A DNA stretch of 64,000 nucleotides from Nicotiana tabacum (taxonomy: Eukaryota; Streptophyta; Magnoliopsida; Solanales; Solanaceae), in the NCBI RefSeq assembly GCF_000715075.1, contig NC_134082.1:60909466-60973465 (forward strand). The letters are read 5' to 3'. The notes below the pieces were generated by a model. That model searched no databases, was not told the DNA's origin, and worked only from the letters and a program-made list of their open reading frames with translations. The translations under genes and the position numbers were made by a program. Positions 22,128 to 62,744 of this stretch are shown here, in pieces (the stretch's first letter is position 1; the number at the start of each line of letters is the position of its first letter).

Positions 22128-22224
22128 AAATATTTCAAAAATGCTTCCCACAGAGTATTCAAACGGGCAAAAATTGCTTGTGCACGCTCACTTTATCTTT
22201 GCACGAAAACTCTTGGGGTTTCCG

Positions 22225-30700: not shown

Positions 30701-32110
30701 AAACAAAAATGAAGGAATAATCAAGAAATGATAAATAATGAACAAGAAAAGAATCAAACATATACTTATTTCAAATCCGAAAATATCAAACAAAATACGG
30801 AAGAAATGAAACTTAAAATAACTGACCGGAAATGACCAACGATGAACTCGAACGGACTCAAACGAAACCAAACGAAATTTGACAGAACTTCGCCGGACTT
30901 TAACCGGACTGCTTCGCTTTTCCTCCGTGTGTGTGCGTGTAGTTGTGGAAGTTGCTATGGTTGTTTGGTCGAGGGACTGACGTGAGGGAGAAAAAACCAC
31001 AGCTATGAGAGGTGAGGTTAAGCAGCGGCAGCCATGGTAGTTGCTACTGGTTGTTTGGTTGATGAAGGCGACGATAGTCGTTTGGACATGACGACGACGG
31101 GGCTGGGGATGATGGATGCTGGTTCGCTGCTGGGCGGGGTTATGGGTGACGGACTGTTTAGGCGGAACGAGGAAGAAGATGACCGGAGCTCAGCAAATAA
31201 CCATGGGAGCTTGACATTGGAGAAGAAATAGAAAAGAGCCGTTTGGACGTGAAGGAACAGAAGTGAAGAAGAAGAAGATGACGACGGGGCAGCCATGGGA
31301 GCTCGACGAGCTTCATCAATGGCGGATAGGGCTGGGACAGTTGGACGAAGAAGAAGGAGATGAAGACAAGGCAGCCATGGGTGGTCGGAGAGCAGCTTCG
31401 TTGCTGCGTCAATGACGGACGTAAAGCTGGGACTGTTGGACGAAGGGTGGTCGACGGGCGAACATGGGAGGGCAGCTTGGAAGCTTTGAAGAAGAAGAAG
31501 GTAAGAGAGGGGCGAGTGGGATTTTTCAACAGTGAATTTTTTTTTAGGGTTTTGTTTTTTGAAATGAAAGATAGGGAAATAGGGGTGTTGGGTCTTTGGG
31601 GTTATGGACTGGGTCGACCCGCTTTGAAATGGACCGGGTCATAGGGAAAGGTTGGGTATATTTGGGCCTGTGGTTCAAAATTGAAGAAAAGACCTAATTC
31701 CGATTTTCTTTATATTCTTGCTCTCTTTTCTTTTACTTCCTAATTAATAAAACTAAAATTCTAAATTAACTTATCAAAAATATTAATTAATTCCAAATAA
31801 CTATTATCACACATTTAAATAGCAATTAACGATAAAATCGCACAATTTAGACGTTAAATGCTAAAAATGCAACGTACATTATTTTTTATGATTTTCTCAT
31901 TTTGTAAAACAAACTTAAATAAATACTAAATGAAAATGCTACATATTTTATATTTTTATTAATTTAAAACAAATAAACATGCACATACAAAAATACAAAT
32001 AATTATACAAAAATACCACCAAAATACAAAAATTGCACACAAAGGAAAATTATTTTATTTTGAATTTTTTGGGAGTGATTCTCATATAGAGCAAAAATCA
32101 CGTGCTCACA
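27776..32110 (-). repeat. 3' LTR of the complete Ogre
   Basis: 4335 bp, near-identical to 46047-50359. In the first 340 aligned bases I count about nine differences. GC-rich segment at 30880-31650 inside otherwise very AT-rich sequence. The open frames in that segment (for example 31018-31296 and 31158-31529 minus) recur in the other LTR simply because the LTRs are copies; they have no recognised domain. Confidence 0.95.
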
Positions 32111-32126
32111 GCTGCCCCTCTTTGTC
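32111..32126 (-). other. polypurine tract of the complete Ogre
   Basis: Minus strand GGACAAAGAGGGGCAGC immediately precedes the 3' LTR start TGTGAGCACGTG; it is the primer site for plus-strand DNA synthesis in this family. Confidence 0.8.
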
Positions 32127-32224
32127 CGAAAATACGAAGGGTTTTCGTGCAAAGATAAAGTGAGCGGATACGAGCGATTTTTGCCTGTTCGAGTACTCCG
32201 TGTGAAGCATTTTTTGAAAGATCT

Positions 32225-32292
32225 GACCGAACCTCTGCTTCAAAGGTTTCCTACATATCCTGGGCTGAACAGGAATCAGGTCAATGTAGTTC
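32225..32292 (-). ncRNA. Ogre pseudoknot-like RNA motif, copy D (before PPT)
   Basis: Minus-strand order: CGAA, CTACA (32289-32285), GACC (32282-32279), hairpin TCCTG/CAGGA, TGTAG (32255-32251), hairpin AACCT/AGGTT, GGTC (32228-32225). It has the same position relative to the PPT as copy B of the other element, with the same CTACA/TGTAG version of helix 1. Confidence 0.6.
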
Positions 32293-32685
32293 GGGAAGTT
32301 TTGGTAGCTGGGACTACCATGAGACTGCAATGTTACTGCTGTTGCATGCTACTTTTACTGTTTGCTGACCTCCTTATTATACCATGCTTAAAAGAAAAAT
32401 CAAGAAGTTAGGTTAGACTACGAATTACAAGATCTTATCTGTCTTCCCCCTTGCTCTGGTTTCCTTGCTTTCTTGTCGGCTTGTGTTTCCTCTGGCGCCT
32501 TTCTTTCGAAAACTGCTGGGGATGACACTGGCCTTTTGCCTTTTTGAGTATAAGTTTTATTATTCCGTTCTGTCTGCTGGGAACAACTGCTTCCTATGTT
32601 AAAGCTTGTTATGTTGGGGATCTTCGTTGTACTCCTCCTGATTACTGATTTCTCTGTTTGATCTGGAAATGCGTTCCTCTATTCT

Positions 32686-33440
32686 GCAGGCGGGCTCCTG
32701 ACTTCAACATCTTCCTCAAAAATAACACCTCCATTCTCCAGGAGGGCTCCTGACTTCAACAACTTTTAAAAATATAACAACCTCTGTTCTCCAGGCGGGC
32801 TCCTGACTTCTTCAACTTAAAATATATCAACCTCCGTTCTCCAGGCGGGCTCCTGACTCCAACAACTTCTTAAATTCTATCACCTCTATTCTCCAGGTGG
32901 GATCCTGACTTCTTCAACTTCTTGCATTTTATCACCTCCATTCTCCAGGTGGGCTCCTGACTTCTTCAACTTTCTCAAAATTTTAACACCTCCATTCTCC
33001 AGGTGGGCTCCTGACTTCAACAACTTTAAAAATATAACAACCTCCGTTCTCCAGGCGGGCTCCTGACTTCAATAACTTCTTAAATTTTATCACCTCCATT
33101 CTCCAGGCGGGCTCCTGACTTCAATAACTTCTTAAATTTTATCACCTCCATTCTCCAGGCGGGCTCCTGACTTCTTCAATTCCTTAAAAATAACACCTCC
33201 ATTCTCCAGGCGGGCTCCTGACTTCTTCAATTCCTTAAAAATAACACCTCCTTTCTCCAGGCGGGCTCCTGACTTCTTCAACTTTAAAAATATAACAACC
33301 TCCGTTCTCCAGGCGGGCTCCTGACTTCTTCAACTTCTTACATTTTATCACCTCCATTCTCCAGGCGGGCTCCTGACTTCTTCAACTTCTTAAATTCTAT
33401 CACCTCTATTCTCCAGGCGGGCTCCTGACTTCTTCAACTG
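32686..33440 (-). repeat. Ogre minisatellite, 15 units
   Basis: Fifteen tandem units of about 48-54 bp. On the minus strand the core is GTCAGGAGCCCGCCTGGAGAA, the same as in the truncated Ogre, but the spacer (AAGTTGAAGAA and T/A-rich tracts) differs completely. Units 10 and 11 (about 33155-33250) are nearly identical, as are units 8 and 9, indicating recent local duplication. Confidence 0.92.
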
Positions 33441-35017
33441 CTTCCTTCAAAATTGATGTTTTATTCCTCTGAAAATTGCTGGGGATAACATCGATATTTT
33501 ATTTCATTAATGTGTCATTTTTCTTCCTTAAAGACTATTTCCTTTAAAGCTGGTGCTTTCACTTCCCTGAAACCTGTCGGGAATAACACTGTTGGGGAAT
33601 TATCTTTCTCCTTTTAACAATGGTAGGGATGATACTGATTATCTTGCTTCTTCCAAGATTGCTTTTCTCTTAAAACTTGTATCTCTTTTCTCGTATATTG
33701 CTGGGGATTTTTTTTCTTCCTTCAACACTTGTGTTATTTTTTCTCTTTCCCAAATGACTATCTGATTTTAAGAAAATTTTTGTAATGAGAGAAAATTTTC
33801 TGCCCCAGTTTGATGATCTTCTCTGTGACCCTGTCTTCCTGCGGTCAATAATATTTCTTTTCCCTGTTTTAAATCAAAGAAAAATTTATTAGTTTAAAAT
33901 GGTGAAGAGTGGTTTTTCCCTTTTCCTTTCCTTGCATTGCTATAAAACTTGCTGGGGAGAATATTAATTGTTGGGGCTGATATTCCCGCTGGGGATGGTT
34001 GTCGTTTCTCTTCCTTCTCCACTCCGTGTCGTCCGACCATTGTGGAGCTTGGTCGAGAATCTGTCGGAGTTATCCTTGTATCTCGCAAATCTGTTGAGGA
34101 TCATCTTGGAATTTGATCCATAACTTCCCTTGGAAATTTGGGCCTCTTAAGATCTAGACTCATTCATCATTTGGTCTTGCGACAAACTTCTTTTCGCTTT
34201 GTCGCCTTATCTTTGGCTTGTCCTTTTCGCATTTTGCCTTGCACCATTTTGGCAATTGGCAGTAAACTCTGAAAATCCTTTTCAAAAATAAACTATTGGG
34301 GAAATAAAATCTTTTAAACCGAGAAATGAAAAAGAAAACTTTCTGAACAAACGCTGGGGAAAAAGAAAAGAAAAGAACTTATCTGAATGATATAACTAAT
34401 CCCAACGATCATGTCGTGCATTTCGGATTGATCAACCTAGTCTACTTGTATCAATCAATCTTTCGGATGGCCTCATATTGCTGGGGATAAATAAATACTC
34501 AACTTTTGACAAAGGTGGACCTTCTCCGCCAATCTCGCCTTGTCGCCTCATAGTGCCCTTCGAGGGGTTTTCACTAATAAGGCTCTCTCATTTCTCTCAA
34601 CTCCCGTCGCCTCATGGTGCCTGTGAAGGTTTTCACCAACAAGACTCTCTCATTTTATTTTATTTTTCAGTTGGGGATTGGAGCGTTTGTCGATATGACG
34701 CTCTTTGTTGGGGATTCTTTCGGCTATCAATTCATTTCCAGCTTATGATCTTTTTCTCTGTTAGGGATCAGAGTGTTATTCCCGACTTCCGTTTGCATGA
34801 CTTGGCACTTCTCGGATACTGATCGGGAGGTCTTTTTTTTGGACATCAATAGGGATTTTTGTGTGGGGTTAAAAGAAAAGGCTATCAAAAGCTCAAAATA
34901 ATTTTGACGGGTAAAACATTACAACTCTTGGAATCAAACTTTCTTTCCCAAAATTATAAACACAAATTCTGCCCCAGTTTTTCTTGCTTGGGGATTCTTA
35001 TTTTTTGTTTACATTAT
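33441..35017 (-). other. Ogre 3' non-coding region between minisatellite and motif C
   Basis: No supported ORF. Repeated short words ATCCCCAGCA (minus) occur every 50-250 bp between 32515 and 34490. PPT-like CTGGGGCAGAA words occur at about 33800 and 34975. Hairpin repeats lie at 34530-34660. Confidence 0.55.
34530..34660 (-). repeat. two hairpin-forming repeats after Ogre pol
   Basis: Minus strand. Each unit has GAGAGAGTCTTGTTGGTGA or GAGAGAGCCTTATTAGTGA followed by a hairpin. One unit pairs GGTG/CACC with CCT/AGG, the other AGTG/CACT with CCCT/AGGG. They are homologous to 19636-19830 of the other element and occupy the same place after pol and the pseudoknot motif. Confidence 0.6.
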
Positions 35018-35075
35018 GACCGAGCCGTGAGGTGCCTACGTATCCTTCTTTGAGGAATCAGGTCAAACTTAGTTC
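35018..35075 (-). ncRNA. Ogre pseudoknot-like RNA motif, copy C (after pol)
   Basis: Minus-strand order: GGAA, CTAAG (35072-35068, one mismatch in helix 1), GACC (35064-35061), hairpin TCCT/AGGA (35056-35043), CGTAG (35040-35036), GGTC (35021-35018). It starts about 230 nt after the pol stop at 35307, as copy A does in the truncated element. Confidence 0.55.
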
Positions 35076-35306
35076 CCAACTCCTTTGTTTTTCTTGTGAT
35101 CTTGCTTTTGTCTTTATTATTGTTTTTCTCTCTTTTTATCTTTTATTTTTAATTACTGACTCCAAAAGAGGGATATGAAAGAATAAATAAGGCTCAAAAG
35201 GGTAAGCAAAGGTTAAGGTGTTTGGATAGAAGAAAGAATTGCCTCGGTCATTTCATTCTCCGATAAATGCCAACCACAAACAAATGACAATTACAATCAA
35301 AAGAGA

Positions 35307-36026
35307 TCATACATAATATCTTTTAACTGCGTCAGAATTGATAGTCATGTCGACGCATTTCCCTTTGATATCTGTTAAACATAAAGCGCCATTGGACAAC
35401 ACTCTGGTTACAATGAATGGTCCTTGCCAATTCGGGGTGAACTTGCCCTTTGCTTCTGCTTGGTGTGGCAGGATTCGTTTCAACACTTGTTGCCCCACTT
35501 CAAATTTTCTGGGGCGCACCCTCTTGTTGTAGGCTCTTGCCATTCTCCTTTGATATAACTGGCCATGACACACAGCTGCCAATCTCTTTTCATCAATCAA
35601 GCTCAACTGTTCCAAACGGGTTTTGATCCCACTCATCATCATCAATCTCAGCCTCGGCGACAATCCGAAGGGATGGAATTTCCACTTCCGCCGGTATTAC
35701 TGCTTCAGTTCCATATACCAACAAATAAGGGGTTGCACCTACTGAGGTCCGGACGGTAGTGCGATAACCCAACAATGCAAATGGTAATTTTTCATGCCAT
35801 TGCCTGGATCCTTCTACCATCTTCCTCAGTATCTTCTTGATGTTCTTGTTGGCCGCTTCAACAGCTCCATTTGCCTTGGGACGATAAGGTGTGGAATTAC
35901 GGTGTGTAATCTTAAACTGTTCACATACTTCTCTCATCAAATTGCTATTAAGATTAGCACCATTGTCCGTGATTATCACTTTCGGGATCCCAAATCTACA
36001 GATGATATGGGAATGGACAAAATCCA
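35307..36026 (-). pseudogene. pol: Ogre integrase catalytic core end and C-terminal domain
   Basis: Minus strand, in two frames (36027-35593, then 35663-35307), joined by frameshifts near 36030 and 35640. Shows IITDNGANLNSNLM (second D), VEAANKNIKKILRKM (E), KLPFALLGYRTTVRTS, and the C-terminal TPNWQGPFIVTRVLSNGALCL, ending VKRYYV plus stop. The sequence is otherwise close to the truncated Ogre's integrase. Confidence 0.88.
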
Positions 36027-37937: not shown

Positions 37938-38785
37938 TTTCTTTGTGTATCATGTCATGAAACATAGTGGTCATTGCTCTCATGTACGTTGCCCCAACAT
38001 TCTTCAAACCAAATGGCATTACCCGGTAGCAATAAGTTCCCCACGGCGTAATGAAGGCTGTCTTTTCTGCATCTTCCTCATCCATCAGAATCTGATGATA
38101 CCCAGCATAGCAATCCACAAAAGATCCGATCTCACGTTCGGCACAATTGTCGATCAAGATATGGATGTTGGGTAAAGGAAAGTTGTCTTTAGGACTTGCC
38201 CTATTCAGATTACGGTAATCGACACACACCCTGATCTTTCCATCTTTCTTTGGTACCGGCACCACATTAGCCAACCAATCAGGATATCGAGTGACACGAA
38301 TAACCTTTGCTTGCAGCTGCTTGGTTACTTCTTCTTTAATCTTCACACTCATATCCGTTTTGAACTTCCTTAATTTTTGCTTGACGGGATGGCATGCCGG
38401 GTCAGTGGGTAATTTATGAACCACTAAATCTGTGCTTAACCCCGGTAGGTCATCATATGACCATGCAAAAACATCTTTGAACTCAATAAGTGTTTTGATC
38501 AATTCCTCCCTGATATTTGGTGCAATGTGGATGCTTTTTTTAGTTTCTCTGATATCGCCTGCATTCCCTAAATTGATGGCTTCTGTGTCATTTAAGTTGG
38601 GTTTTTATTTTTCTTCAAACTGGCTCAACTCCCTGTTTATCTCCTCGAATGTTTCATCCTCATCGTATTCCGATTCATTATCATAATCGACCTATTGTAT
38701 GGTTAGCTCGGAATCAGATTGATTTTTTAGACTAGGTTGAAGATCCGTTGTGCATGCCATGTCATTAGAACCAGTATGAAAAGAA
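37938..38785 (-). pseudogene. pol: Ogre reverse transcriptase N-part (exon 2 of pol)
   Basis: Begins at the proposed intron acceptor (AACAG ending at 38786). An acidic leader (SESEYDEDETFEEIN, with TAG near 38695 and TAA near 38610 in frame) leads into FKDVFAWSYDDLPGL and the RT fingers/palm: VPKKDGKIRVCVDYRNLN, KDNFPLPNIHILID, YAGYHQILMDEEDAEKTAF, YCYRVMPFGLKNVGATY. It ends by frameshift just before the YVDD motif. The RT copies element RNA to DNA in particles; here it is inactive through stops and frameshifts. Confidence 0.88.
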
Positions 38786-38976
38786 CTGTTCAGAAAAAGA
38801 AACGAAAGAAACAAAAATTAAAATAATAACAAATAAGATAAGAAATAAAGAAGAAACTTTTCGTTTTATTTATGGTATAACAAGGCTTCACACTGTATTT
38901 GATGTAATAAAAAGAAATCTGGATTACAGCCCTGGAATAATCCAGAAAATAGAAAAGGAAAATCAGAATCAACTAC
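38786..38976 (-). other. predicted spliceosomal intron of the Ogre element (191 nt)
   Basis: Minus-strand donor GTAGTT at 38976 and acceptor TTTTTCTGAACAG ending at 38786, with a long T-rich tract before it. The protease frame otherwise ends at TAG 38975-38973, inside the donor. Splicing joins it in phase to the RT leader frame. An intron between protease and RT is known for Ogre elements. Confidence 0.75.
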
Positions 38977-40448
38977 CAAGACTCCCTCCAAGTAGGAAGA
39001 GGAGTAGCCACCCAATTGTTGACCTTGACTTTGGGACGCACAAATTGTATGTCTGCCTTACTGGAGCCCTCTCCAGCTTCTATCATGTTGACGTCGGTAA
39101 ACACTCTTCCAAAGCATTCATTCAAATCTCCGTTTGGCCCCATCAGAGGTCCAAGAACTTCCGGGACTGGCAACTTTCTGCATCCTGCTTTGACAAATGA
39201 TCTGGACAGGCGTGGGACTGGTTTAGGAAGGACCCAAACTCTTTTCTTCAATTTGCGGGCTCGCTTCACATCCGCTGCGGTAGGCTTGAATCCTAACCCA
39301 AAAGTTTCCAGGTTCTTGGGCAAAGAAACTGGCTGGATCATTCCCTGCAAATCAACCCCCAGACCTTTCCCTGGTACAAACCCATTATTCAATATTTCTG
39401 CTGCTATCATGAAGGCTGCAGCTGTGATTCTGGGAAGTGGAAGGCCCTCGCCCTCAGGAATTTTGTCTACCGAGACTGCATAAAAAACCTGATAAACCCA
39501 CGGGCCCTTATCATCGTCGGTTTCTATGAAGGGCACAATAGCATCACTGACGGCGTGTGTGCCGTCATCCCCGTGTATCACAATCTCTTGTCTATCCCAT
39601 TCAAATTTGACCACTCGATACAGTGTAGAAGGCACTGCTTTATCTGCATGGATCCATGGTCGCCCCAACAAAAGATTGTACGACACTGCCACATCTATTA
39701 CTTGAAATTCCATGGTGAACTCGACTGGGCCAATGGTTAGTTCCAGTACGACATCACCTACTGTGTTAATGCCGCCCCCATCAAAACCTCGGACGCAGAC
39801 ACTGTTCTGGTGGATCCTGTCATCAGCAACCTTTAGCTTGTTGAGAGTGGCCAAAGGACAGATATTGGCACTTGACCCGTTATCAATTAATGCTCGAGTG
39901 ACCATCGATTCTTCACATTTTACCGTCAGGTAGAGTGCTTTGTTGTGTTCAGTACCCTCTATTAGTAACTCATCGTCAGAGAATGTCACTCGGTTTACTT
40001 CAAAGATCTTGTGCGCTACTTTCTCCAAGTGGTTCACTGAGAGTTTGTCCGGGACATAGGCCTCGTTCAGAATCTTCATTAAGGCCTGACAGTGATCGTT
40101 TGAATGGATTAACAAGGATAGCAACAAAATCTAGGCTGGGGTCTTTCTCAATTGCTCTATAATTGAGTAATCCTGCGCCTTCATCTTTTTCAAAAATTCC
40201 TCTGCTTCTTCCTCTGTTACAGGTTTCTTTATTGTTTCAGGATTGACCCTTCTCAACTCTGCGGGAGCAAAACACCTTCCCGATCGAGTTAACCCTTGTG
40301 CCTCGCATATGTCTTCCACAACCTCCTTCCCCTTATGCGTCACCGTCACTTGACTGTAGCTCCACGACACAGCCTTCTCACATGTTATTGACAACTGTAT
40401 GACCGGCTTGATAACAACTGGTCCCACATGGACCCCTTTTACTACCAA
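38977..40448 (-). pseudogene. pol: Ogre protease region
   Basis: Same frame as gag, separated from it by a TAG at 40470-40472 and with another TAG at 40131-40133. The aspartic protease active site reads ALIDNGSSANICPLATL (D-N-G-S in place of the common D-T/S-G) and is followed by hydrophobic strands ending in YNLLLGRPWIH, the retropepsin C-terminal motif. A G-patch-like tail (GFVPGKGLGVDLQGM) and a basic stretch (RARKLKKRVW) follow. The polyprotein continues across the intron. Confidence 0.85.
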
Positions 40449-40469: not shown

Positions 40470-42467
40470 CTACAACACTGCTCTGACTGACTCTGGCCTC
40501 TTCGCAGTAATAGATGATCCTTTCCCTGCTATCACAAAGGGCTTGTCATATACCTTTCCCGACTGTACCACTGCCTTTCTACTGGTCGACTCTTCATTAG
40601 TACTGGCGCGAATCATCATTACCGTTTGTGAGGGTGTTTTTGGTTTCCCTCCCTCGTGCACTAATTCGATCATGTGGGCTTCATGGTGTACCGGTAATGG
40701 ATTTTCATTGATGTTGGGGGCCCCTGGTGCCTGAACCTCGATCCTATTTGTGTCAATAAGATCTTGTATGGCAGTCTTCAACTTCCAACATTTCTCAGTA
40801 TCATGCCCGGGAGCACCCGAACAATATTCGCAGCTCACTGAATGGTCCAGATTTCTGGGAAGGGGATTTGGCAATTTGGTTTCAACAGGACTTAATAGGC
40901 CTATCTGCTTCAACTTATGAAACAGAGTAGTATAGGTTTCTCCCAACGGAGTGAATGTTCTTGGCTTCTGCATCCTTTCGTTCCTGAAAGCCTGATTTCC
41001 GCGGAAACTTGGCCCTGAAGGATTCCTGTAGGCCCTCGGTGGCGGATATGTGTTTTGGGGAGGTAGATATGTATGTTGGGGAGCAGGTACACGCCATTGC
41101 GGACGAGCCGGAGGCTGGGTGTAAGTTTGGGCGTGATGGACGGAAATATTTTGTTCTTGTAGTGGGTAGTAGGGTTGTGGAGGGTTATATGGATTGGATG
41201 GGTAGTTTAGATGATGGGGTCTGGGTTGGTAATGAGGGGAAGGGCCTTTAGATCTGGACCAATTGCCCGCCTCTATTGTTGTGACCTCCTCTCTCCTTTT
41301 CTTTCCGAGCGCACCTCCCGTGCCGCTTTGAATGGCTTGAGTTGTTACCTTAATTGCCGAGTAACTCAGGATCTTGTTGGACTTAAGTCCCTCTTCTATC
41401 ATACCCCCCATCTTCACCACTTCATTGAAGGATTTGCCAACTGATGTCACCAAGTGACCGAAGTAAGTCGACTCTAGAGTTTGTAGAAAGTAATCTACCA
41501 TTTCTCCTTCTCTCATTGGAGGATCAACTCTGGCTGCATGTTCTCTCCATCGGAACCCGAATTCCCTGAAGCTTTCTCCGGATTTCTTCTCAAGCTTTAG
41601 CAATGTGAGACGGTCTGGGACTATCTCAAGGTTGTATTGGAAGTGTCCAGCGAAAGCCTGTGTCAAGTCATCCCAGGTGTACCACCTGCTCGGATCTTGT
41701 CTTGTATACCACTCCAGTGCCGACCCGCTCAAACTCTGGCCAAAGTAAGCTATCAGTAGCTTATCTTTTCCCCCTGCTCCCCTCATTTTGCTACAAAAAC
41801 CCCGTAGATGCGCCATAGGATCGCCATGCCCTTCGTACAAATCGAACTTGGGCATTTTGAACCCTGGTGGTAATTGAACGTCAGGGAAAGGGCATAGATC
41901 TTTGTAGGCCACGCTGACCTGGTTGCCTAACCCGTGTATGTTCCTGAAGGACTGCTCCAGGCTTTTAAATTTCTGCATCACCTCGTCCTGCTCTGGGCTC
42001 TTAGCCGGCTTTTCAATCTCTGCCGGGACCTCAAAGTGGGGATTATAGGTATGTGGCTCGGGTGCTTTGAATGTGAGTTCAGGGGGGTAATATTGTTTGT
42101 CGTGAGCCTGAAACAGTGGCTCACTGGATGATCTGTGCAATGGGGCTGGGGGAGGTGCCACAAAGACGGGAACATTTGGTGGATGAGGGTTTTGAGTGGG
42201 TGGTAGAGCTTGGGGATCATAAGCCTCTCTTCCCTGATAATAGTGATGGCTTGGGAAACTTGTTGAAGGACCAGGAGAGGGGTATTCTGACGTGTGTCCT
42301 AGTTGGAGAGTAGGAGTAACAGGTAGTTCCTGCCCTTTTTGGGATCTAGCCAAGGCTATCTGCATTTCATTCATTTCCAACCTCATTTTTTCCATTTTTT
42401 CCATGGCTTCCTTCAGCATCTGATGTGCCGTCTTTTCCGACTCAACACTGTTGTCTGATCCAGTCAT
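40470..42467 (-). CDS. gag: Ogre gag
   Basis: 665 codons from ATG 42465-42467 (MTGSDNSVESEKT). An N-terminal coiled coil (KEAMEKMEKMRLEMNEM, about 20-45) is followed by a Pro-rich region (60-150). The retrotransposon gag capsid domain at about 210-350 includes DPMAHLRGFCSKMRG, LIAYFGQSLSGSALEWY and GESFREFGFRWREHA. A basic, aromatic-rich region precedes a zinc knuckle CEYCSGAPGHDTEKC near residue 560 with spacing C-x2-C-x5-H-x4-C, one residue longer than the common form. It is the longest intact frame in the element and might still be translated; the TAG at its end probably interrupts an original gag-protease fusion. Confidence 0.88.
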   Translation of the reverse strand: MTGSDNSVESEKTAHQMLKEAMEKMEKMRLEMNEMQIALARSQKGQELPVTPTLQLGHTSEYPSPGPSTSFPSHHYYQGREAYDPQALPPTQNPHPPNVPVFVAPPPAPLHRSSSEPLFQAHDKQYYPPELTFKAPEPHTYNPHFEVPAEIEKPAKSPEQDEVMQKFKSLEQSFRNIHGLGNQVSVAYKDLCPFPDVQLPPGFKMPKFDLYEGHGDPMAHLRGFCSKMRGAGGKDKLLIAYFGQSLSGSALEWYTRQDPSRWYTWDDLTQAFAGHFQYNLEIVPDRLTLLKLEKKSGESFREFGFRWREHAARVDPPMREGEMVDYFLQTLESTYFGHLVTSVGKSFNEVVKMGGMIEEGLKSNKILSYSAIKVTTQAIQSGTGGALGKKRREEVTTIEAGNWSRSKGPSPHYQPRPHHLNYPSNPYNPPQPYYPLQEQNISVHHAQTYTQPPARPQWRVPAPQHTYLPPQNTYPPPRAYRNPSGPSFRGNQAFRNERMQKPRTFTPLGETYTTLFHKLKQIGLLSPVETKLPNPLPRNLDHSVSCEYCSGAPGHDTEKCWKLKTAIQDLIDTNRIEVQAPGAPNINENPLPVHHEAHMIELVHEGGKPKTPSQTVMMIRASTNEESTSRKAVVQSGKVYDKPFVIAGKGSSITAKRPESVRAVL

Positions 42468-42691
42468 GCTTTCTGGTATAGGACCTTTCGATCTTGTTTG
42501 ATAATGGTACGGTGCCAGTACGCTCTAACAACTAACTGATATTGATTGGAAAAACAACAAACTTGTCAGTGTTAGAGTCTTAACAGATATTGTAATTGCA
42601 CGTTGGGGGGATGCAATGCTCTTAGGTTGTTAATCATTTCTAACATGCTTTTGCTCTGACCGCATGCATCATCCCGGCTTATTTTGTTCTG

Positions 42692-42719: not shown

Positions 42720-42741
42720 TTCTTCTTTTTTTCATAATTAC

Positions 42742-42806
42742 GGTCGAATCCTATAGAGATTGCCTACGTATCGTGACCCCGCACGAATCAGACCAAGCGT
42801 AGTTCG
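42742..42806 (-). ncRNA. Ogre pseudoknot-like RNA motif, copy E (between ORF1 and gag)
   Basis: Minus-strand order: GCACGAA, CTACG (42802-42798), GGTC (42794-42791), hairpin CGTG/CACG (42785-42772), CGTAG (42768-42764), hairpin AATC/GATT, GACC (42745-42742). Helix 2 is GGTC/GACC where all other copies have GACC/GGTC, a double compensatory change. GCACGAA can also pair with the following TTCGTGC as an alternative fold. Confidence 0.6.
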
Positions 42807-42972
42807 TGCCATAAAAATAAAGACTCAATTTTAACTTTTATTATTCAAATATGCTATTACAAGCCATCATTAAAAAAAACAAACAAAAATACAGACTCCA
42901 TACTTTTCTTTTTAAGAACGTTTGAAGAGAACATAAGGGTAGACAACAGACTCAAACAAGTGCAAGATTGAG

Positions 42973-45028
42973 CTAGGGATACATTAAAGCTTTGAATTTT
43001 GGTGCCCGCGAGGCATCGTTCGGCCTTTCCGCGGGCTTTAGTGACAGTCCTCTTTGCAAGCTTTTTAGTTCCTCCATGATCCGGTGGAAATAACCCATGA
43101 CTGAGGCAAAAAGGATATCACGGGGCATCTCTTCACATGTTAGGCACTTCGTGGTGATATAGCGCCCTATCTCATTGATCCTACCCCTGATTCTATCCCT
43201 CTCTATGCACAGTTGTTCTATCCGTTGATTCTTTAGTCCCAATATTCATATTGTCAATGAGCTGATCTTGGAACCTCTCCATTTGTTCTTCCATCCGGGC
43301 TATCGACTCATAGCATCATTCTCTATCTGTTCTAGCATCCCAGGTTTGTTTAAGGACCCGATTATTGAGAATGGAGTTTATTTCTCTCAATGTTGCGACA
43401 CTCATTTCGTAGTCTCTTTTTGCTTGCCATAGGTGCTCTCTCCGCGCTACTGTAACTTTTGCCCACCTGACCCGTATTCTTGCTATACAGGCCTCGGATC
43501 TCTCCAAATCCTCTCGGCTTTTGTTGACCTGACTCCTCAACTCTCCTATCAACCTTTCATTGGACCGCCTTTTCTGTTGGTCACCGACATTCTTTCTGAC
43601 TTGGCGAATTCGGGATCTCAAGGCCTTGTTCTCTTGAATCAACTTGCTTTTCTCTCCTGTATCGGCATCAATTTGCAAGCTGCTTTGGTATTTTAGCCCC
43701 TCAATTTGCTGTTTTAACTTGCCAATCTCGACCCGATATTCCTTCTCTTTTGCTAGCCAACCCCATTGTGCTCGCGATGATTCTACAAAGTATTGGACGT
43801 GAGCTCTCTTAGTCGGTCTCTGGTGCTCAAGCTCTCTTCTGTACCATGTGAGGTATTTTGGCGATACTTCGCCTTTGGCCCGGTCTTGTACATGAGTATC
43901 TACTTTCAGGGTTTGACATTCATTCCAGATTCTTCGAACGACTGCTTCAGGGAACTGTCCACCAGGCCCGATTTCGATTACCTGGCCACTGAGATCCTCT
44001 TCCTTTGGGACTATTTGGTATCGCCCCAACTGTCTCAACACTCTGTATGGTGCATAAGGCTGGATACTTTGGAGGCCCATCAACAACAAATGAGATTCGG
44101 TGGCTGACATGTGTACGACTTCATCTATGGGTAGCCACCCAAATGCCCATTCTATCTAGTTTGCTAAGACTGAACGCAACAAAGTGACCCATTCGGCGAC
44201 CCCTTCTGGCAGGCTAAACCCATTGACCTTTGTGGAAAACTCTTCTATACAAGTCTTTTGTGACGACTCATATTTCAGGAACTGAGGGCGATGACATAGG
44301 TGTTCTATCATCCACATTTGCAGTAGTACATTGCAACCCTCAAAGAAACCTCCTCCGGTTTTGCAAACAGTGAGAGCGCGGAAGATGTCTGCTATAATCA
44401 TTGGCGCCAGAGTGCTGTTGTTTTGCTTGAGCAAAGTGCTGACGACCCCAGCGACTTGTATGTTAATTTTCGCGTCTTTTCTAGGGAATACCAGAAGGCC
44501 CAGAAAGGCTACCATGAAAGCAATACACCTATGTCCTTCCCATTTCAGCTGGTTTTCCCCGCTGCAGATCTTTCCCTCAGGATTGTTGAACCCTCCAAAA
44601 TGACCGTATCTGTCGTACAAGAATGCAAAACTACAAAAACCTTCAGATAATTTTGGGTTGTGTATAACTCTGCGGATCTTCACGGTGTCTAAAAATTTGT
44701 GTATGGTCACGGTCCTTGGTGCGATAAGATACTACTCTCTTATAGGGACTTTGGGACTCCCGATGTACCCTGCCAGCTCTTCCAGTGTCGGTGTGAGCTC
44801 AAAGTCTGAGAAATGAAATACATTGTGTGCTGGGTCCCAGAATGAGATTAGCGCCCTTATAATGTCCCCTCTTGGAACAATGTCCAGTAACCCAACTAAG
44901 TTTCCTAAGTACATCTTGACTGTATCTCGTCCTGATTCTTCTAAGTCGTTCCACCACATGCGTAAGCCTAAAGGGATCCCATTTACAATGGCCTCAAATG
45001 AATTCCTATTCGTGCTCATTCTGCACAT
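42973..45028 (-). pseudogene. Ogre ORF1 (extra ORF before gag), function unknown
   Basis: Three segments in one frame (45028-44732, 44710-44156, 44110-43316) separated by TAG or TGA codons, then a frameshift near 43245 into 43242-42973: about 680 codons in all. The N-terminal third is alpha-helical with WWNDLEESGRDTVKMYLG and LTPTLEELAGYIGSP, resembling the plant mobile-domain-like region seen upstream of gag in Ogre elements (recalled, not searched). The C-terminal half is a long charged coiled coil (KLKQQIEGLKYQSSLQ, NERLIGELRSQVNKSRED). No catalytic motif is recognised. The position before gag, in the same transcript, is the Ogre hallmark. Confidence 0.75.
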
Positions 45029-46024
45029 TTATTAAGGGATTTAGACAAAACCAAAAATCTTTATTTGACTCATAAACTAATTTTCCTATTTTTTCCTAAT
45101 TTTGAGGAAAAGAAAAATTGATTCTTTAAATACGGCCTTCTGACTCTTCAGGGATGAAGATTTTAAGGCTGTAGGGATTTAACCAGCCGAAAGGTAAAAA
45201 AAAACAAAGGTGGCTGCTTATGCAGAGTCAGCCTTTCAGCGCCCCTTTAGGGAATGTTCAGCTATTTTTGCAACATGGCATAACCTGACTCTTTTATTTA
45301 TTTTTTGGCATTTTTGTAGATAAATAAATAAAAAAAAAAACAATTAAAAACAAGACCTTTTTTTTTCATGGTAATACAAACTATTTTTTTTAAAATAGGC
45401 AATTAATTCTCTACACTGTTACTTCGTCCCTTTTTTCACAATTTTCAATATTCCTGATTTTCCAAAGCCGGTCAGCATGCAAGTCTAAAGTAAATAAATG
45501 CATAAAGCAAATAGGATGCAGCAGGATGGTCTTTGCATTTCAGGTTGCTAGTCCTAGACGGACCCAACCCCTGTGTTGAGTCCCCTAAGTCAGATGCAAC
45601 GTGATGCAAATAAGCGTTTTCCTACTAGGGATCCAGCATGAAGTCATATTTTACTAAGCTTTAAACTGGGCTTTGTTCTAGACCTGGCTTACCCGAGCGG
45701 ACAACTCGAGTCGAGGAGGGGGCTACGTACCGGGGACCCGCGGGGTCGTCCAGCTTTGTAACTTATCCGAGCCTCTTTCTTATTTCAGGTATTGACACTA
45801 ACAGAATAGGGAGTCTCGACCAGCGAGCTTCTCCCCGGAGGCAAGAAGAGAAGGGTTTCAACACAGTTTATACACACTTTACATAATATTAAAGCGGTAA
45901 AGGCAATCGATTAGCACATTTAAGCCAAAACATGTAATAAAATCAAATAATAGATAAAGCCAAATAATAACAATTATTCTAAGCTCGAATTCTTGAATCC
46001 TGAACCAGAGATTCTGGGTTCATT
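45029..46024 (-). other. Ogre 5' leader
   Basis: About 1 kb between PBS and ORF1 with no ORF of note. A GC-rich island at 45680-45780 (GACCC-GCG-GGGTC inverted repeat at 45734-45747) stands out from AT-rich surroundings and is a candidate packaging or dimerisation structure (inference). Confidence 0.5.
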
Positions 46025-46042
46025 TCCCCAGCGGAGTCGCCA
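46025..46042 (-). other. Ogre primer binding site, tRNA-Arg type
   Basis: Minus strand TGGCGACTCCGCTGGGGA, four bases inside the 5' LTR end. It fits the tRNA-Arg complementarity reported for Ogre elements. Confidence 0.8.
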
Positions 46043-46046
46043 GAGC

Positions 46047-49000
46047 TGTCACACCTCCTTTTTCCGCCCCGCGAGGGGTGAAGGAGTTTTTTCCAATTAA
46101 AGGACAATCGAAACGAGATTTATTTATTTATTTCAGAGTCGCCACTTGAGAGATTTAGGGTGTCCCAAGTCACCAATTTTAATCCCGAATCGAGGAAAAG
46201 AATGACTCTGTATTACAGTCTGCGAACCAGAAATCCGGATAAGGAATTCTGTTAACCCGGGAGAAGGTATTAGGCATTCCCGAGTTCCGTGGTTCTAGCA
46301 CGGTCGCTCAACTATTATATTTGGCTTATTTATCTGATTTTTTAAATAATTAAGAACTTATATGCAAATTTAGTTTTTAAACCGCTTTTATCATTATTCC
46401 TCTTATTATTTTATACAAGAATTGCAACGTTGTGAAAACGCATCTCGAGCCACGTCACAACCAGTGTATACGTGATTTGTTGACGCATTTTGACTCTACC
46501 AAGATTGGGATTTGGGTTACATAAATGCACACCCATGTTTAAGAAAATACCCTTATTAAATATGCGCCAAAATACTACGCGCTATTATACTATTCGGTAG
46601 GACTGTGAAATTTACTAAATGGCCCATCCCGGAATCTAAGTATTTTTTTTTTTTAAAAAAATAAGATTGGAGGACCCTGCAAATTTTGTATTGTTTATAT
46701 TTATTTATTTTTAGCGAAATCCTCCCTTATTTTATGAATATCTTAAAATGACTACATTTCTTTTTATTAAACTTGTCTATAAATACAAAAATCAATTTTT
46801 TACATACTTAAAATAACGTATTAAATACTAGTTTAAGACAAATATTTAACGAAATGAAATATCACTAAAAATGTAATTATAAAAACAATACGGAATTGTC
46901 AAATAATATTTTAAAAGAAACTAATTATCCCATCTAGATTAAATTCACATTGTTAGATGACTTGAGCTATTGAAATTAATTATTTACAATTACGGAGAAT
47001 TAGAAACACTCTTGATTACTAATGCGTATTTCTAAAATTTATTTAATTTAACCTTAACTAACCTTGTTTTAATTCAAATCATGTTATAATACTTGATTCG
47101 CAAAATCAAAAAAAATTCTTGTTTTACCTAAATTTAGCTACATGATTTCGATTAACTTAAGGTTAGCGATACTAAAACCCTTATAAATAAGGAACTTAAT
47201 CAATTTTGCCAAACTGATTTAATAAAGTCATTTTTTACGTTATTTTTTTTCTCGCTCTAATTATTAGACAGTTTAATCAGTAATGAACAGGCTTAAATAT
47301 ATACTACCTAATAATCAGGTTAAGGCATTGTTTAATATACGCTACAACATGTCTAGTTATGCCAAATGACAGTGATTTACAGAATAATAATACATGAAAT
47401 AATCTAAATACAATTAAAAAAAATTAAAACTAAATTAGAAATTTAACATTCCATTCTTCATTTCAGCTTACAAAATGCCAAAATTACAGTTGTGTACATG
47501 ATATTGCCATTATAAGAAGAAGAAAGTCAGCCACGTAGTACGTAATACAGCAACAACAATAATAACCAGCAATCCAGTCAACAGAAATCCCAGTGACAGA
47601 TTTGAAAATCAAAATAAAATCCAGAAACACCGACAACAAACCACGGACAGAAACCAAGGGAATTTTCAGATTTGAAAGGCTAATTAATGTTTAACCCTTA
47701 ATTTCTAAACCCGTATATTAGAATATTTATCAGGTGTGCTACTCTCTCTTCTAATTTCCAGCTCCTTTTTTATTTGTATTTTTTTTCTTTTTTTTTCTTG
47801 AAAGTTTTAATATTTTTCGGAATTTTTCTTTCTCTCTTAAATATTCAGCTCTTTTTTCTCTCTCTCTCCCTATCTGTCTTCCTCTTTTTTTCAAAATCTG
47901 ATCAAGTCCTTCCTTTTATTAACATCTTTCAACATTAAAAAAATTAAAACTTACTATCTTCCACTCATCCCCCTTTTAATCCCACTACCTAATATTTTGT
48001 CCCCCACTTTATTAAACAAATACCTCATTATATCTTGTCCCCCATGCTTATATTAAACAATTGCATTATTCTCCACCATTATATCTTGTCCCCCCATTAT
48101 TGATTATTTTAATATTATCTTAATTTTAATGGAAAGAACACTCAAAATAAATAATTATTCAGAATTTTAATTCCAAAAATACCCCTCTGCCCTTACTGAA
48201 ATTATCATTTTACCCCTGAACGTACTGCAAATTACCAAACTACCCCCATCAGCTATAACCAATTCACCTAATTAATTTCAACCAAAATACAACAAATATG
48301 ACCAATTTCTAAACAAATTTTTAACAACAAATTCAAACTAAATGATGAACAACAAAGAAACAACTAAAATTATCTTGATTGAACAATATTTTTAACAACA
48401 AACAAACCTACTTTCAGATTCAACAACAACAAACATGTATATTCAGATTTCTAAATTCAATAATCATTTGAACTTAAAATTAAATCTAACAACATTACAA
48501 CCAACAATTTCTATATTAAAACTAAACAAGATCATGAAGCAAACTGAAGAAATAATCATAAATGATAAACAACAAACGAGAAAATCAAACTTATACTAAT
48601 TTCGGATTCAATAACAATCAAACAAAGTATGAACATAAATGAAAAGTTTCAACAACAATAACAAGCAAGTTTTATTCAAATTCGAATTAAGCTTAAACAA
48701 AACAAATAAACATATTCAAATCACTAAACTTCAAATAATCAATTGATCTTTTTAATTAACTCCAATAAAATTATAACAAAAATACATGATTCAAAAAATT
48801 AAAAACCAAAACATAAACTCATATTAAATTACCGAATTGAAAACGAACTTCAAACAAAACAAAAACTGAACACGAATTAAATCTAAACTAAACAACAAAG
48901 ATGGATGATTCAAGCGATCGAACTAACATTCTTTTATGTTAAAACTAAACCAAAACAAATGAATAAAAACAAAAATGAAGGAATAATCAAGAAATGATAA

Positions 49001-50359
49001 ATAATGAACAAGAAAAGAATCAAACATATACTTATTTCAAATCCGAAAATATCAAACAAAATACGGAAGAAATGAAACTTAAAACAACTGACCAAAAATG
49101 ACCAACGATGAACTCGAACGGACTCAAACGAAACCAAACGAAACTTTGACAGAACTTCGCCGGACTTTAACCGGACTGCTTCGCTTTTCCTCCGTGTGTG
49201 TGCGTGTAGTTGTGGAAGTTGCTATGGTTGTTTGGTCGAGGGACTGACGTGAGGGAGCAAAAACCACAGCCATGAGAGGTGAGGTTAAGCAGCGGCAGCC
49301 GTGGCAGTTGCTACTTGTTGTTTGGTCGATGAAGGCGACGATAGTTGTTTGGACATGACGACGACGGGGCTGGGGACGATGGATGCTGGTTCGCTGCTGG
49401 GCGCGGTTATGGGTGACGGACTGTTTAGGCGGAACGAGGAAGAAGATGACCGGAGCTCAGCAAATAACCATAGGAGCTTGATGTTGGAGAAGAAATAGAA
49501 AAGAGCCGTTTGGACGTGAAGGAACAGAAGTGAAGAAGAAGAAGAAGATGACGACGGGGCAGCCATGGGAGCTCGACGAGCTTCATCAATGGCGGATAGG
49601 GCTGGGACAGTTGGACGAAGAAGAAGGAGATGAAGACGAGGCAGCCATGGGTGGTCGGAGAGCAGCTTCGTTGTTGCGTCAATGGCGGACGTGAAGATGG
49701 GACTGTTGGACGAAGGGTGGTCGACGGGCGGACATGGGAGGGAAGCTTGGAAGCTTTGAAGAAGAAGAAGGTAAGAGAGGGGCGGGTGGGATTTTTCAAC
49801 AGTGAAATTTTTTTAGGGTTTTGTTTTTTGAAATGAAAGATAGGGAAATAAGGGTGTTGGGTCTTTGGGGTTATGGACTGGGTCGACCCAGTTTGAAATG
49901 GACCGGGTCGTAGGGAAAGGTTGGGTATATTTGGGCCTGTGGTTCAAAATTGAAGAAAAGGCCTAATTCTGATTTTCTTTATATTCTTGCTCTCTTTTCT
50001 TTTACTTCCTAATTAATAAAACTAAAATTCTAAATTAACTTATCAAAAATACTAATTAATTCCAAATAACTATTATCGCACATTTAAATAGCAATTAACG
50101 ATAAAATCGCACAATTTAGACGTTAAATGCTAAAAATGCAAAGTACATTATTTTTTATGATTTTATCATTTTGTAAAACAAACTTAAATAAATACTAAAT
50201 GAAAATGCGACATATTTTATATTTTTATTAATTTAAAACAAATAAACATACACAGACAAAAATACCACAAAAATACAAAAATTTCACACAAAGGAAAATT
50301 GTTTTATTTTGAATTTTTTGGGAGTGATTCTCATACAGGGAAAAAATCACGTGCTCACA
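46047..50359 (-). repeat. 5' LTR of the complete Ogre
   Basis: 4313 bp, pair of 27776-32110, with the same TGTCACACC...GCTCACA ends. Small indels in T/A runs explain the 22-bp length difference. The GC-rich segment at 49150-49920 matches that of the other LTR and may be the transcribed leader region. Confidence 0.95.
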
Positions 50360-50364
50360 GAGGC

Positions 50365-52534: not shown

Positions 52535-54037
52535 TTAGGTGATCTTAATCATCCCTAATTCCAACATGTTCCTCTCAAAGTTTTCTCTAGTTAGTGTTTT
52601 AGTGAAGATGTCAGCAATTTGTTTATCAGTAGCACAAAATTCTATGGAGCTCAATCCTTTCTCATAGTAATCTCTTAAGAAGTGGTGTCTAACATCTATG
52701 TGCTTAGTCCTCTTATGATGAACAGGGTTCTTTGTCATACTTATAGCACTAGTGTTATCACAGAAGATAGGAATACAACCAACTTCAATGCTAAAATCTA
52801 CCAGCTACTGTTTGATCCACATCAATTGAGCACAACAAGAGGTAGTAGCAACATATTCAGCCTCAACAATGGATAAGGCCACTGAATTTTTCTTTTTAGT
52901 GGCCCATGATACAAGACATGGACCAAGAAAATGAGCCGTACCTAAGGTGATTTTCCTATCCACAAGGAAACCTGCATAATCAGCATCAGCATACCCTACT
53001 AGATTGAAATTACTACCTTTAGGATACCAAAGACACAGATCAGTAGTGCCTTTCAAATATCTCAGTATCCTCTTGACAACAGTCAAGTGAGATTCCTTTG
53101 GATTAGCCTGAAAGCGAGCACAAATCCCTACATTGAAAACTATGTCAGGTTTGGTGGTAGTAAGATACAAAAGTGAACCAATCATACTCCTATACAACTT
53201 CTGATCAACAGATGAACCAGGTTCATCTCTGTCTAATTTAGTGGAAGTTTCAATTGGGGTGTCTATTTCCTTTTATTCATCCATTTAAAACTTTTTGATA
53301 AACTCTTTTGCATATTTCTGCTGATGGATCATGGTTCTATTTGGGTTTTGTTTGATCTGGAAGCCTAAGAAAAAATTAATCTCTCCCATCATACTCATTT
53401 CAAATTCACTCCCCATTAATTTGGCAAAATCCTTACTCCGTTTGTCAGTGGTTGCCCCAAAAATTATGTCATTAACATATATTTGTACCACAAGAAGATC
53501 CTTACCCTTTTCTTTCAAGAATAGAGTACTATCAACTTTACCTCTTTTATAGCCATGTTCAAGCAGGAATTTGGACAATCGTTCATACCATGCTCTAGGA
53601 TCTTGCTTGAGTCCATAGAGAGCCTTGTCTAATTTGTACACATGCTCAGGACATTCCTTACTCTCAAACCCCGGAGGTTGTTTAACAAACACTTTTTCTT
53701 TTAGGTAGCCATTCAGGAAGGCACTTTTTACATACATCTGATGAAGAGTGAATTCCATGTGTGCTGCAAAGGCTATAAGGAGTCTTATTGCCTTCAGTCT
53801 TACAACTAGAGCAAAAGTCTCATCATAATCTATACCCTCCTCTTGGCTATAACCTTGGACCACCAATCTTGCCTTGTTTCTTGTAACTGTTCCATCTTCA
53901 TCAAGTTTGTTTCTGAAGACCCATTTTGTGCCAATCACTGATCTGTCCTTAGGTCTTGGAATTAAATGCCAAACTTGACTTCTCTCGAACTGATTGAGTT
54001 CATCTTGCATTGCATTTTCCCAATCTGTATTTTGCAA
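52535..54037 (-). pseudogene. pol: SIRE reverse transcriptase and RNase H (YVND active site)
   Basis: One frame with stops at 53282-53284, shortly after it (near 53268) and near 52802. RT motifs: HLIPRPKDRSVIGTKWVFRNK, NKARLVVQGYSQEEGIDYDETF, KSAFLNGYLKEKVFVKQPPGF, ALYGLKQDPRAWYERL. The catalytic pair reads QIYVNDIIFG: the first Asp of YVDD is Asn, which should abolish polymerisation. RNase H follows with MIGSLLYLTTTKPDI, YADADYAGFLVDRKITLG, VEAEYVATTSCCAQLMW and HIDVRHHFLRDYYEKG, ending MIKIT plus stop. Confidence 0.92.
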
Positions 54038-54052
54038 AGCCTCAACAACATT

Positions 54053-55732: not shown

Positions 55733-57257
55733 AAAGAAATCAGGGGTTAGTCTTAGGAATCCAAACTAGTTTGGGTCCCTTTCTATAGGCAAAGGGGTAA
55801 ATCAAATTTCTTTTAGCCCACCCAGGCAGCCTATTTTTCTTTTGAACAAAAGCTTTGTTCTTTTGATTGGCCTTTTCTTTTGCATTACATTCATTTTTGT
55901 AATGACCAGTCTTGCCACAATGTGTGTAGATTTTGTTTTTTCAGGAAGAGTGAGGTACTTGCTTTTGGGATCCCACTTAGGTGCTTGTGCCCTATAGCCA
56001 AGTCCTCTCTTGTTGCTACTGTGATGTTCTTATAGCCAGGATAGTACATCAGAAGCCTTATTTCATTTGCAAGTTCTATCTAGTTCATGTTTTACCTTCC
56101 CTAGATCTTCTTTTAAGACTCTTATTTGCTCATCTTTCCTGTACAACTCATCCTTCATTTTTCCTATGTTTTCTTCTAAGGTGAAATGTGTGTGATCAGC
56201 TTTCTTCTTACCTGTTCTTAATTTTAGTTTTAAATTTTCAGACCTAAGTTTTAGGACACCGGTGTCAAGTTTAAGAACCTGGTTCTTCAACTCAGCATTT
56301 TTACTGTCACTCTCATTAGCCCTAGATTCTAGATTTTTGCACTTGGCTTTTAAGATCACACACTCCCTAGACATCTCTTCCTTCTCATTGTTAATTATCT
56401 CAGACTCATCAATGAAGTCCAGCAACAGTTCAGACAACCTTCCTTTAGACAGAAATTTAATCTTGTCTTTGAGATGAAAGACACTTACCTCTTGTTCATC
56501 ATCTGATTCTCCGATGGCTATAAGTGCTTGTTCATCTCCAGCTTCATCTTCTGAATCCTCATCTGATGTTTCTCCCCAAGCAGCAACCATAGCCTTTGTT
56601 GATCCCTTGCTCCTTTTGGGTTGAACCTGTTCCTTCGTTCAGCCCTTTCCTTCTTCCATTCAATTTCCCACTAAGGACAGTTCTTGATCATGTGATCAGT
56701 CTTACCACATTTGTAGCAACCATCGTTGGTCTATTTCTTAGGAGCCCTTGGTTTGTTGAAGGTTGTACCTCTTGAAGAACCCTTTCCTCTCATTAGGTAC
56801 TTTTTGAAATCTCTTGTGATCATGGCCATTTCATCATCCTCCAGATCTGCACCTTCAGCTATTCTGAGAGCCAGACTTCTTTCCTTCTTGGGTGCATCCA
56901 TTTTAATGGTTTTCCTTCTCAGTTCATAGGCAGTGAGGTTTCCAATCAGTTCATCCAACTTCAGAGTAGCAATGTTCTTTGATTCCTGAATAGAAGTGAT
57001 TTTTCTTTCCCAAGTCACTGGTAAGACCCTTATCAAGATTTTCTCAACCTTGTCTTCTTCAAGGATAATGCTCCCAGGAGATTTAAGTTCATTTGTTAGT
57101 GTTGTGAACCTTGTGTACATCTCCTGGATAGTTTCTCCTTCCTTCATAGTGAAATTCTCATATTGAGAATATAGCAGTATTCCTCTTGATCTCTTTACTT
57201 GAGGAGTTCCTTCATGAGACACTTGTAAAGTGTCCTATATCTCCTTCGTGGTGGTAC
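55733..57257 (-). pseudogene. gag: SIRE gag, 5' end removed by gypsy insertion
   Basis: Minus strand. The capsid region DTLQVSHEGTPQVKRSRGI, with YENFTMKEGETIQEMYTRFT, runs from 57257; a TAG replaces the usual Trp just before DTLQV. A zinc knuckle CYKCGKTDHMIKNC (C-x2-C-x4-H-x4-C) lies at about 56690-56725. A frameshift leads into an acidic coiled-coil region (56590-56063: GETSDEDSEDEAGDEQAL, KNAELKNQVLKLDTGV). A second knuckle near 55895-55930 reads YTHCGKTGHYKNEC, with its first Cys changed to Tyr. The N-terminus of gag lies beyond the inserted element. Confidence 0.85.
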
Positions 57258-62741: not shown

Positions 62742-62744
62742 TTC

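Follow-up and report, generated by a model that had tools for sequence, protein, structure and literature searches.

The HDV ribozyme has the helix order P1-P2-P3-P1'-P4-P2', with its catalytic C between P4 and P2 and a P1 of about 7 pairs, and compact pseudoknots act as exoribonuclease-resistant RNAs in some plant viruses. Among mammalian LTR retroelements, cis-acting structured RNAs that serve in RNA export include the constitutive transport element (CTE) of M-PMV and the transport element of mouse MusD (MTE). The MTE contains a pseudoknot and is the means by which unspliced RNA of this LTR retrotransposon is exported (excerpt of PMC12786077). Retroviral export elements likewise act on unspliced genomic RNA (excerpt of PMC4829213). 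In plants, the hammerheads of retrozymes are structured RNAs tied to Ty3-type retrotransposons (excerpt of PMC7761336). Ogre elements make up 45% of the genome of Lathyrus sativus and have hypervariable tandem repeats in their 3' UTR (excerpt of PMC7004042), and their transcripts are spliced only in part (excerpt of PMC6317226).

We analyzed a stretch of 64 kb of Nicotiana tabacum DNA, hereafter the window (assembly GCF_000715075.1, contig NC_134082.1), in which Ogre (Ty3/Tat) elements carry an RNA motif of 60-75 nt composed of four helices. The pseudoknotted structure of this motif is nearly certain. Very probably, the motif has a function in Ogre elements, in which the pseudoknot was kept while the letters forming it changed, and its best interpretation is a new family of cis-acting RNA elements, probably read by a protein. 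The motif resembles the MTE and CTE in being a structured, presumably cis-acting RNA of an LTR retroelement, and the MTE also in having a pseudoknot, and it differs from them by residing in a plant Ogre element and by occurring in several copies at fixed places; we know of no sequence relation between the motif and either element. With HDV-like ribozymes it shares the helix order, and it has a C between P4 and P2, but its P1 has 5 pairs, the loop of its P3 is not fixed, it has additional fixed UGAU and UA junctions, and several copies are present per element. The viral exoribonuclease-resistant RNAs are, as is the motif, small pseudoknots in untranslated spacers of RNA genomes, but the order of the pseudoknot strand and the hairpin differs. 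In contrast to the retrozymes, the motif gave no match to a hammerhead model of Rfam, and its copies in the window are located outside the LTRs. The tandem repeats of the Ogre 3' UTR occur in the same elements, in a region flanked by motif copies (A and B in one element, C and D in the other), but the repeats are hypervariable whereas the motif is conserved, and the two are separate features.

Ogre elements of the window and their motif copies

The window contains two Ogre elements. Element 2 extends over 22.6 kb from LTR to LTR on the minus strand, with a 5' LTR (46045-50360) and a 3' LTR (27774-32111), both of 4.3 kb, detected by self-comparison with blastn and 96.8% identical. From 5' to 3', it comprises the 5' LTR, a PBS-like stretch called by eye, ORF1, copy E of the motif, gag, and pol. 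Pol is followed by copy C and then by a zone of tandem repeats; copy D comes next, ahead of a purine-rich tract and the 3' LTR. The ORF1 region (43316-44731, minus strand) encodes a plant mobile domain (PF10536, 1.7e-9 in 44156-44731); the match to the same model in 43316-44155 (8e-5) is below Pfam's cut-off. The gag gene (40470-42524, minus strand) was identified by PF03732 (9.3e-7), and Pfam domains of reverse transcriptase, RNase H-like type (two), and integrase were found in pieces between positions 35307 and 40130 of the same strand. One reading displayed PF17917 (148-252), RVT_3 (310-428), and Integrase_H2C2 (520-574), the second RNase H thus preceding the integrase. The piece at 38973-40130, in which a G-patch match is below Pfam's cut-off, was taken as the protease by position alone, and the piece at 35307-35696, which has no Pfam match, is homologous to element 1. 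Element 1 is truncated and lies on the plus strand. The features of the elements fit Ogre as described in excerpts of PMC6317226 and PMC3305785; according to the former, the domain order is the one found here and the plant mobile domain is present in 57% of Ogre elements. A Ty1/copia element (52805-57234, minus strand) and a retroelement fragment with protease and reverse transcriptase (62031-63560, minus strand) contained no copy of the motif by our models.

The original prediction, made from the letters of the window, had listed five copies with a shared order of elements. All five were confirmed. They follow the sense strand of the two Ogre elements, which places copies C, D, and E on the minus strand, a correction to that prediction. 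In element 1, copy A (19303-19372, plus strand; alignment and cmsearch) follows the integrase and copy B (22056-22135, plus strand) precedes the 3' LTR. In element 2, copy C (35010-35080, minus strand) follows the integrase, copy D (32217-32297, minus strand) precedes the purine-rich tract and the 3' LTR, and copy E (42734-42810, minus strand; 84.9 bits by cmsearch) is located in the spacer between ORF1 and gag. The core GATANGTAGG was found 5 times in the window for an expected number of 0.25, and 5 occurrences were reached in 0 of 100 shuffles. A chance origin of the five copies was rejected on the basis of this count and of the pairing shuffles reported below.

A covariance model, R1, retrieved no copy beyond the five in the window. 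A later model, R2, retrieved nothing further except a weak match at 38083-38139 (plus strand, E 0.0013), which was found by eye to lack the core and was judged to be due to chance. This match remains among the 94 rows used for counting pairs and was left out of the tree-aware test, of the P2-combination counts, and of the count of exact 12-mers among the copies of the slices and the window. The leader of element 2 (44740-46040, minus strand), which is complete, held no copy by either model, which indicates that a given element does not need a copy at all of the positions.

Fold of the motif

The motif consists, from 5' to 3', of GAA, the 5' strand of P1, 2-4 nt, the 5' strand of P2, UGAU, hairpin P3, UA, the 3' strand of P1, GCA, hairpin P4, a single C, and the 3' strand of P2. 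In the alignment of the five copies, P1 is CTACG/CGTAG and P2, which forms the pseudoknot, is GACC/GGTC. In copy E, all parts of which are on the minus strand, P1 is formed by CTACG (42798-42802) and CGTAG (42764-42768), as read from the sequence and the alignment. Its pseudoknot helix P2 is formed by GGTC (42791-42794) and GACC (42742-42745), a pairing also backed by the covariation of P2. Hairpins P3 (TCGTG...CACGA, 42771-42786) and P4 (AATC...GATT, 42747-42761) were defined by alignment and covariation, and the single C at the P4-P2 junction is at position 42746.

The differences between copies that had drawn attention to this structure can all be read in the sequence. P2 is GACC/GGTC in copies A, B, C, and D and is exchanged on both sides, to GGTC/GACC, in copy E. 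P1 is CTACA/TGTAG in copies B and D, and copy C has one P1 mismatch. The single-stranded letters had been described as nearly invariant. This holds for TA (93 of the 93 distinct rows of alignment A3), TGAT (90), and the single C between P4 and P2 (90), as well as for GAA (88) and GCA (84), part of this fixed core being the same 12-mer by which the loci were chosen. It does not hold for the GTAGG that had been counted among these letters, since its GTAG belongs to the 3' strand of P1.

In P2, P3, and P4, the letters change freely and pairing is kept. The loop of P3 varies from 2 to 16 nt and its letters are not fixed. A fixed core combined with free stems suggests that the core resembles a recognition or active part and that the remainder of the motif is a scaffold. 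P1 (columns 9-13 and 62-66 of alignment A4) is a helix with nearly fixed letters, unlike the three other helices, and in most copies the palindrome TACGTA results from its 3' side. Folding energies were ordinary for all five window copies (z from -1.10 to +0.90), as computed by a program that cannot form P2.

Pairing and covariation

In the alignment of the five window copies, 96.6% of 89 cells were paired and 6 of the 18 pairs had changed on both sides. Neither value was reached in any of 500 shuffles. When the partner was shifted by 1 to 3 columns, pairing fell to 21-39%. Of the five measures applied, one did not stand out: the observed count of further pair types was reached by 251 of the 500 shuffles.

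Across 71 sources, some of which are overlapping loci, R2 gave 128 matches. These correspond to 94 distinct rows, or 93 without the chance match. Among the 94 rows, the proportion of paired cells was 98.7% for P2, 97.6% for P1, 96.9% for P3, and 87.2% for P4, the outer pair of the latter helix (69-88) being unpaired in 40 rows. P2 was absent from both of the models used for alignment, and its pairing is therefore an independent test. This helix was fully paired in 88 of the 93 distinct copies and contained a mismatch in the other 5. It displayed 16 combinations, 12 of them fully paired, including GGTT/AACC (24 copies), GACC/GGTC (20), GGTC/GACC (19), GATC/GGTC (6), GACT/AGTC (5), and GATC/GATC (4). 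G-U pairs were present in the sense reading. In the shuffle test performed on the 94 rows, none of the 500 shuffles attained the observed value for three of the five measures; the two others were weak (31 and 40 of 500).

Covariation was assessed with a script of our own that follows the idea of R-scape and takes the tree into account, based on a G-test with average-product correction, a FastTree tree, and 300 null alignments obtained by replaying the parsimony changes on random columns. The test was applied to the 93 copies, all from one genome. Pair 21-90, which belongs to P2, ranked first of the 3003 column pairs. The top five were all predicted pairs (two in P2, two in P3, and one in P4), and the sixth was a non-predicted pair. 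When the test was restricted to the 18 predicted pairs, none of the top five had an E value higher than 0.0012. With all 3003 pairs considered, E was below 0.05 for two of them and 0.06 to 0.21 for the other three. In an earlier run (alignment A3, 200 null alignments), the top six pairs were all predicted and four had E values of at most 0.015 over all pairs.

These results bear out the interleaving of two helices into a pseudoknot and the variation of the enclosed hairpin, P3, with retention of pairing, both of which had been read from the five copies. They extend to P4, a second hairpin that the original prediction had listed without a test. The proposed compensation in both helices stands for P2. 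The pairs of P1 were not significant in the tree-aware test, with one branch showing a double change, since P1 is too invariant for its pairing to be provable by covariation. The copies are not mere unconstrained paralogues, a possibility rejected because their flanks have diverged to the level of shuffled sequence and because P2 covaries.

Copies in the tobacco genome and database searches

The count of five copies, correct for the window, understates the abundance of the motif. In the assembly, which comprises 3,996,098,646 bases (4.0 Gb) in 700 contigs, the core 12-mer GATACGTAGGCA occurred at 29,629 + 28,648 = 58,277 exact places, compared to 40 + 28 = 68 for the reversed control. The pattern GGTC...GATACGTAGGCA...GACC occurred at 9744 places genome-wide, compared to 0 for its reverse. 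The loci that we sampled were drawn from the first 100 places listed, all within the first 5.1 Mb of one contig, and consisted of 30 loci of 3 kb, 20 slices of 10 kb picked where exact 12-mer places cluster, and 20 pieces of 401 bases. The whole motif was detected by R2 in all 50 of the singly fetched loci (the 30 of 3 kb and the 20 of 401 bases). In the 20 slices and the window, the exact 12-mer was present in only 47 of the 61 copies detected by R2, indicating that the true copy number is higher; since the slices were chosen by the 12-mer, we claim no exact total for the genome. A weak R1 match in locus L164 (9927-9999, E 0.009) lacked the core and was left out of alignment A3.

A pattern scanned against a collection of genome contigs gave 0 matches. 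A loose pattern gave at least 120 matches in viral contigs. Among the matches listed, GAACTA was never present in the 25 nt upstream, and a form with one mismatch was present there in 11; all were judged to be due to chance. A stricter pattern retained a single locus in viral contigs, by eye an unrelated viral sequence.

The motif had not been recognized as a member of a described family when it was first noticed, and database searches agree with this. Rfam 15 gave 0 matches at the gathering score over the 64-kb window, hammerhead and HDV-like models included, and 2 matches at E 1 over 20 loci, neither of them over the motif. Two matches to snoRNA models (E 0.47 and 0.93), with scores well under the cut-offs of these models, extended into the 5' part of copy E. 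On this basis, membership in a described Rfam family was rejected. Among the titles and abstract openings of the papers searched, we found no such RNA element of Ogre, although the body of the primary Ogre papers may mention one. The letters of the core, searched as text, occurred in one paper of the collection searched, on a human virus disease.

Placement of the copies in Ogre elements and gene-less relatives

Each of the 20 slices contained 2 to 4 copies, and in all 20 the copies of a slice were on one strand. The slices keep one order of copies relative to the LTR end, the leader, ORF1, gag, and the 3' UTR homology, with up to four kinds of place: the leader, the ORF1-gag spacer, the region after pol, and the region before the 3' LTR. 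A leader copy was present in 20 of 20 slices, a count biased by the choice of slices with clustered cores. Two leader copies were observed in L158, L161, L170, and L171, and copy number thus varies from element to element.

The letters of P2 differed between places. The leader copy mostly had GGTT/AACC or a near form; those of L152 and L167 (TACC/GGTC) and of L162 (GGTC/GGTC) were exceptions. The ORF1-gag copy mostly had GGTC/GACC, GGTC/GGCC, or GATC/GRTC, and the post-pol copy GACC/GGTC or GACT/AGTC, with GACA/GGTC in L162 as an exception. Three copies are located before the 3' LTR, namely B, D, and L163:538, the last of which was assigned from its homology to the 3' UTR. A fourth, L162:1519, probably belongs here, judging from order only. 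All four, the probable one included, have CTACA/TGTAG as P1.

Five slices (L154, L156, L169, L170, and L171) were gene-less, defined as giving no tblastn match (E 1e-5) to any of eight ORF1, gag, and pol protein pieces. They harbored 3, 3, 3, 4, and 4 copies, respectively (17 copies), at leader, spacer, and post-pol places, with the 3' UTR homology about 1 kb past the spacer copy. Comparison of these slices with the ORF1-gag spacer of the window (blastn, E 1e-8) revealed similarity within 466-597 of the latter, the motif itself corresponding to 506-582. The presence of copies in gene-less elements and the confinement of the similarity to a short stretch around the motif argue for a function of the RNA in cis and against a function tied to the next gene. 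A limit to this argument is that gene-less elements may keep their copies simply because these escaped deletion, and that all five seem to belong to a single family.

Identity was compared for all pairs of copies of the same class. It was 0.51-0.62 for the flanks and 0.89 (leader), 0.76 (pre-gag), and 0.72 (post-pol) for the motifs, figures for the latter that are somewhat inflated by the choice of loci via the 12-mer, and shuffled controls gave 0.55 for the flanks and 0.51 for the motifs. For pairs with a flank identity below 0.55, motif identity was still 0.87 (leader), 0.73 (pre-gag), and 0.66 (post-pol), with the same inflation.

Candidate functions

An RNA that stands apart from any gene and is present at several places of a transcript is best accommodated by a role in recognition. 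Our best reading is thus that the motif is a cis-acting recognition RNA for the handling of Ogre genomic RNA. We give it a probability of about one half and infer both that a protein reads the motif and at which step of the life cycle this occurs. As for an export element, the motif is a structured RNA, presumably acting in cis, on the sense strand of the predicted transcript and outside the coding regions. The varying helices P2, P3, and P4 would act as a scaffold presenting the fixed core (P1 together with GAA, UGAU, UA, GCA, and C). The core could be read by the Gag or the ORF1 product of the element or by a host protein, and as a result the long, partly spliced genomic RNA would be exported, protected, or packaged. 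Packaging by Gag would be an equal form of the same idea. The MTE is a known analogue, and the partial splicing of Ogre transcripts also speaks for this reading. If so, the motif would open a direct way to study RNA export or packaging in plant LTR retrotransposons. The tens of thousands of natural variants present in one genome offer a rich substrate for probing, and the motif can be used as a marker for the annotation of gene-less relatives that hold the RNA without the genes.

It is rather unlikely that the motif is a new class of catalytic or mechanical RNA, with an HDV-like fold and an active core of its own, which Ogre elements would use at several places per transcript. If it were one, it would rank with the most abundant RNAs of this type known from any genome. 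A compact pseudoknot with fixed loop letters, located between genes, could also be an exoribonuclease-resistant RNA that halts 5'-3' decay and stabilizes the downstream pieces. We consider this doubtful because Rfam gave no match, because the pseudoknot strand of the motif lies 5' of the inner hairpin and not in its loop, and because a piece starting just ahead of the 3' LTR would be of little use.

Doubt also weighs on the motif being a new class of self-cleaving ribozyme related in form to HDV. Its helix order P1-P2-P3-P1'-P4-P2' is that of HDV, with P2, P3, and P4 supported by covariation, the unpaired core is fixed, and the near-fixed C occupies the P4-P2 junction, although this junction is just one base long. 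Against this, Rfam has no match over the motif, the variable length and letters of the P3 loop mean that the P1.1 contact of HDV is not seen, P1 is shorter than the approximately 7 pairs of HDV, and several self-cleaving copies would cut the genomic RNA to pieces. Ribozymes are known in other retroelements, according to an excerpt of PMC7761336, which speaks for catalysis.

In elements that have both ORF1 and gag, copies precede each of these genes, as would be expected from a translation element serving internal entry or re-initiation at the next ORF. This role is quite improbable, as no recognized ORF follows the post-pol and pre-LTR copies and as the gene-less elements have leader, spacer, and post-pol copies. 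Still less probable is a dimer-linkage site, in which P1 would form between two genomic RNAs through the palindrome TACGTA. Such a site would explain why the letters of P1 are nearly fixed while P2, P3, and P4 vary, but in B, D, and two copies similar to them the sequence is TATGTA, with the palindrome lost and P1 kept. Finally, amplification of the elements could alone account for the high copy number of a DNA-level repeat or chance pattern devoid of any RNA role, but this is extremely improbable given the compensatory changes in P2, P3, and P4, the G-U pairs on the sense strand, and flanks no more alike than shuffled flanks.

Other features near the copies

In both elements of the window, tandem repeats of 45-52 nt (21046-21809 and 32676-33495) are located in the part of the 3' UTR that separates the post-pol copy from the pre-LTR copy. 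The repeats of one element are related to those of the other. Shortly 3' of copies A and C, CCCC...GGGG arms are followed by CAGAA (19389-19408, plus strand, and 34972-34993, minus strand); CTGGGGC is found again among the tandem repeats. The sequence TGGTAG-TCCCAG-CTACCA, which may form a hairpin of 6 bp, is identical by copies B and D (22034-22051, plus strand, and 32302-32319, minus strand), 9 nt upstream of their GAA.
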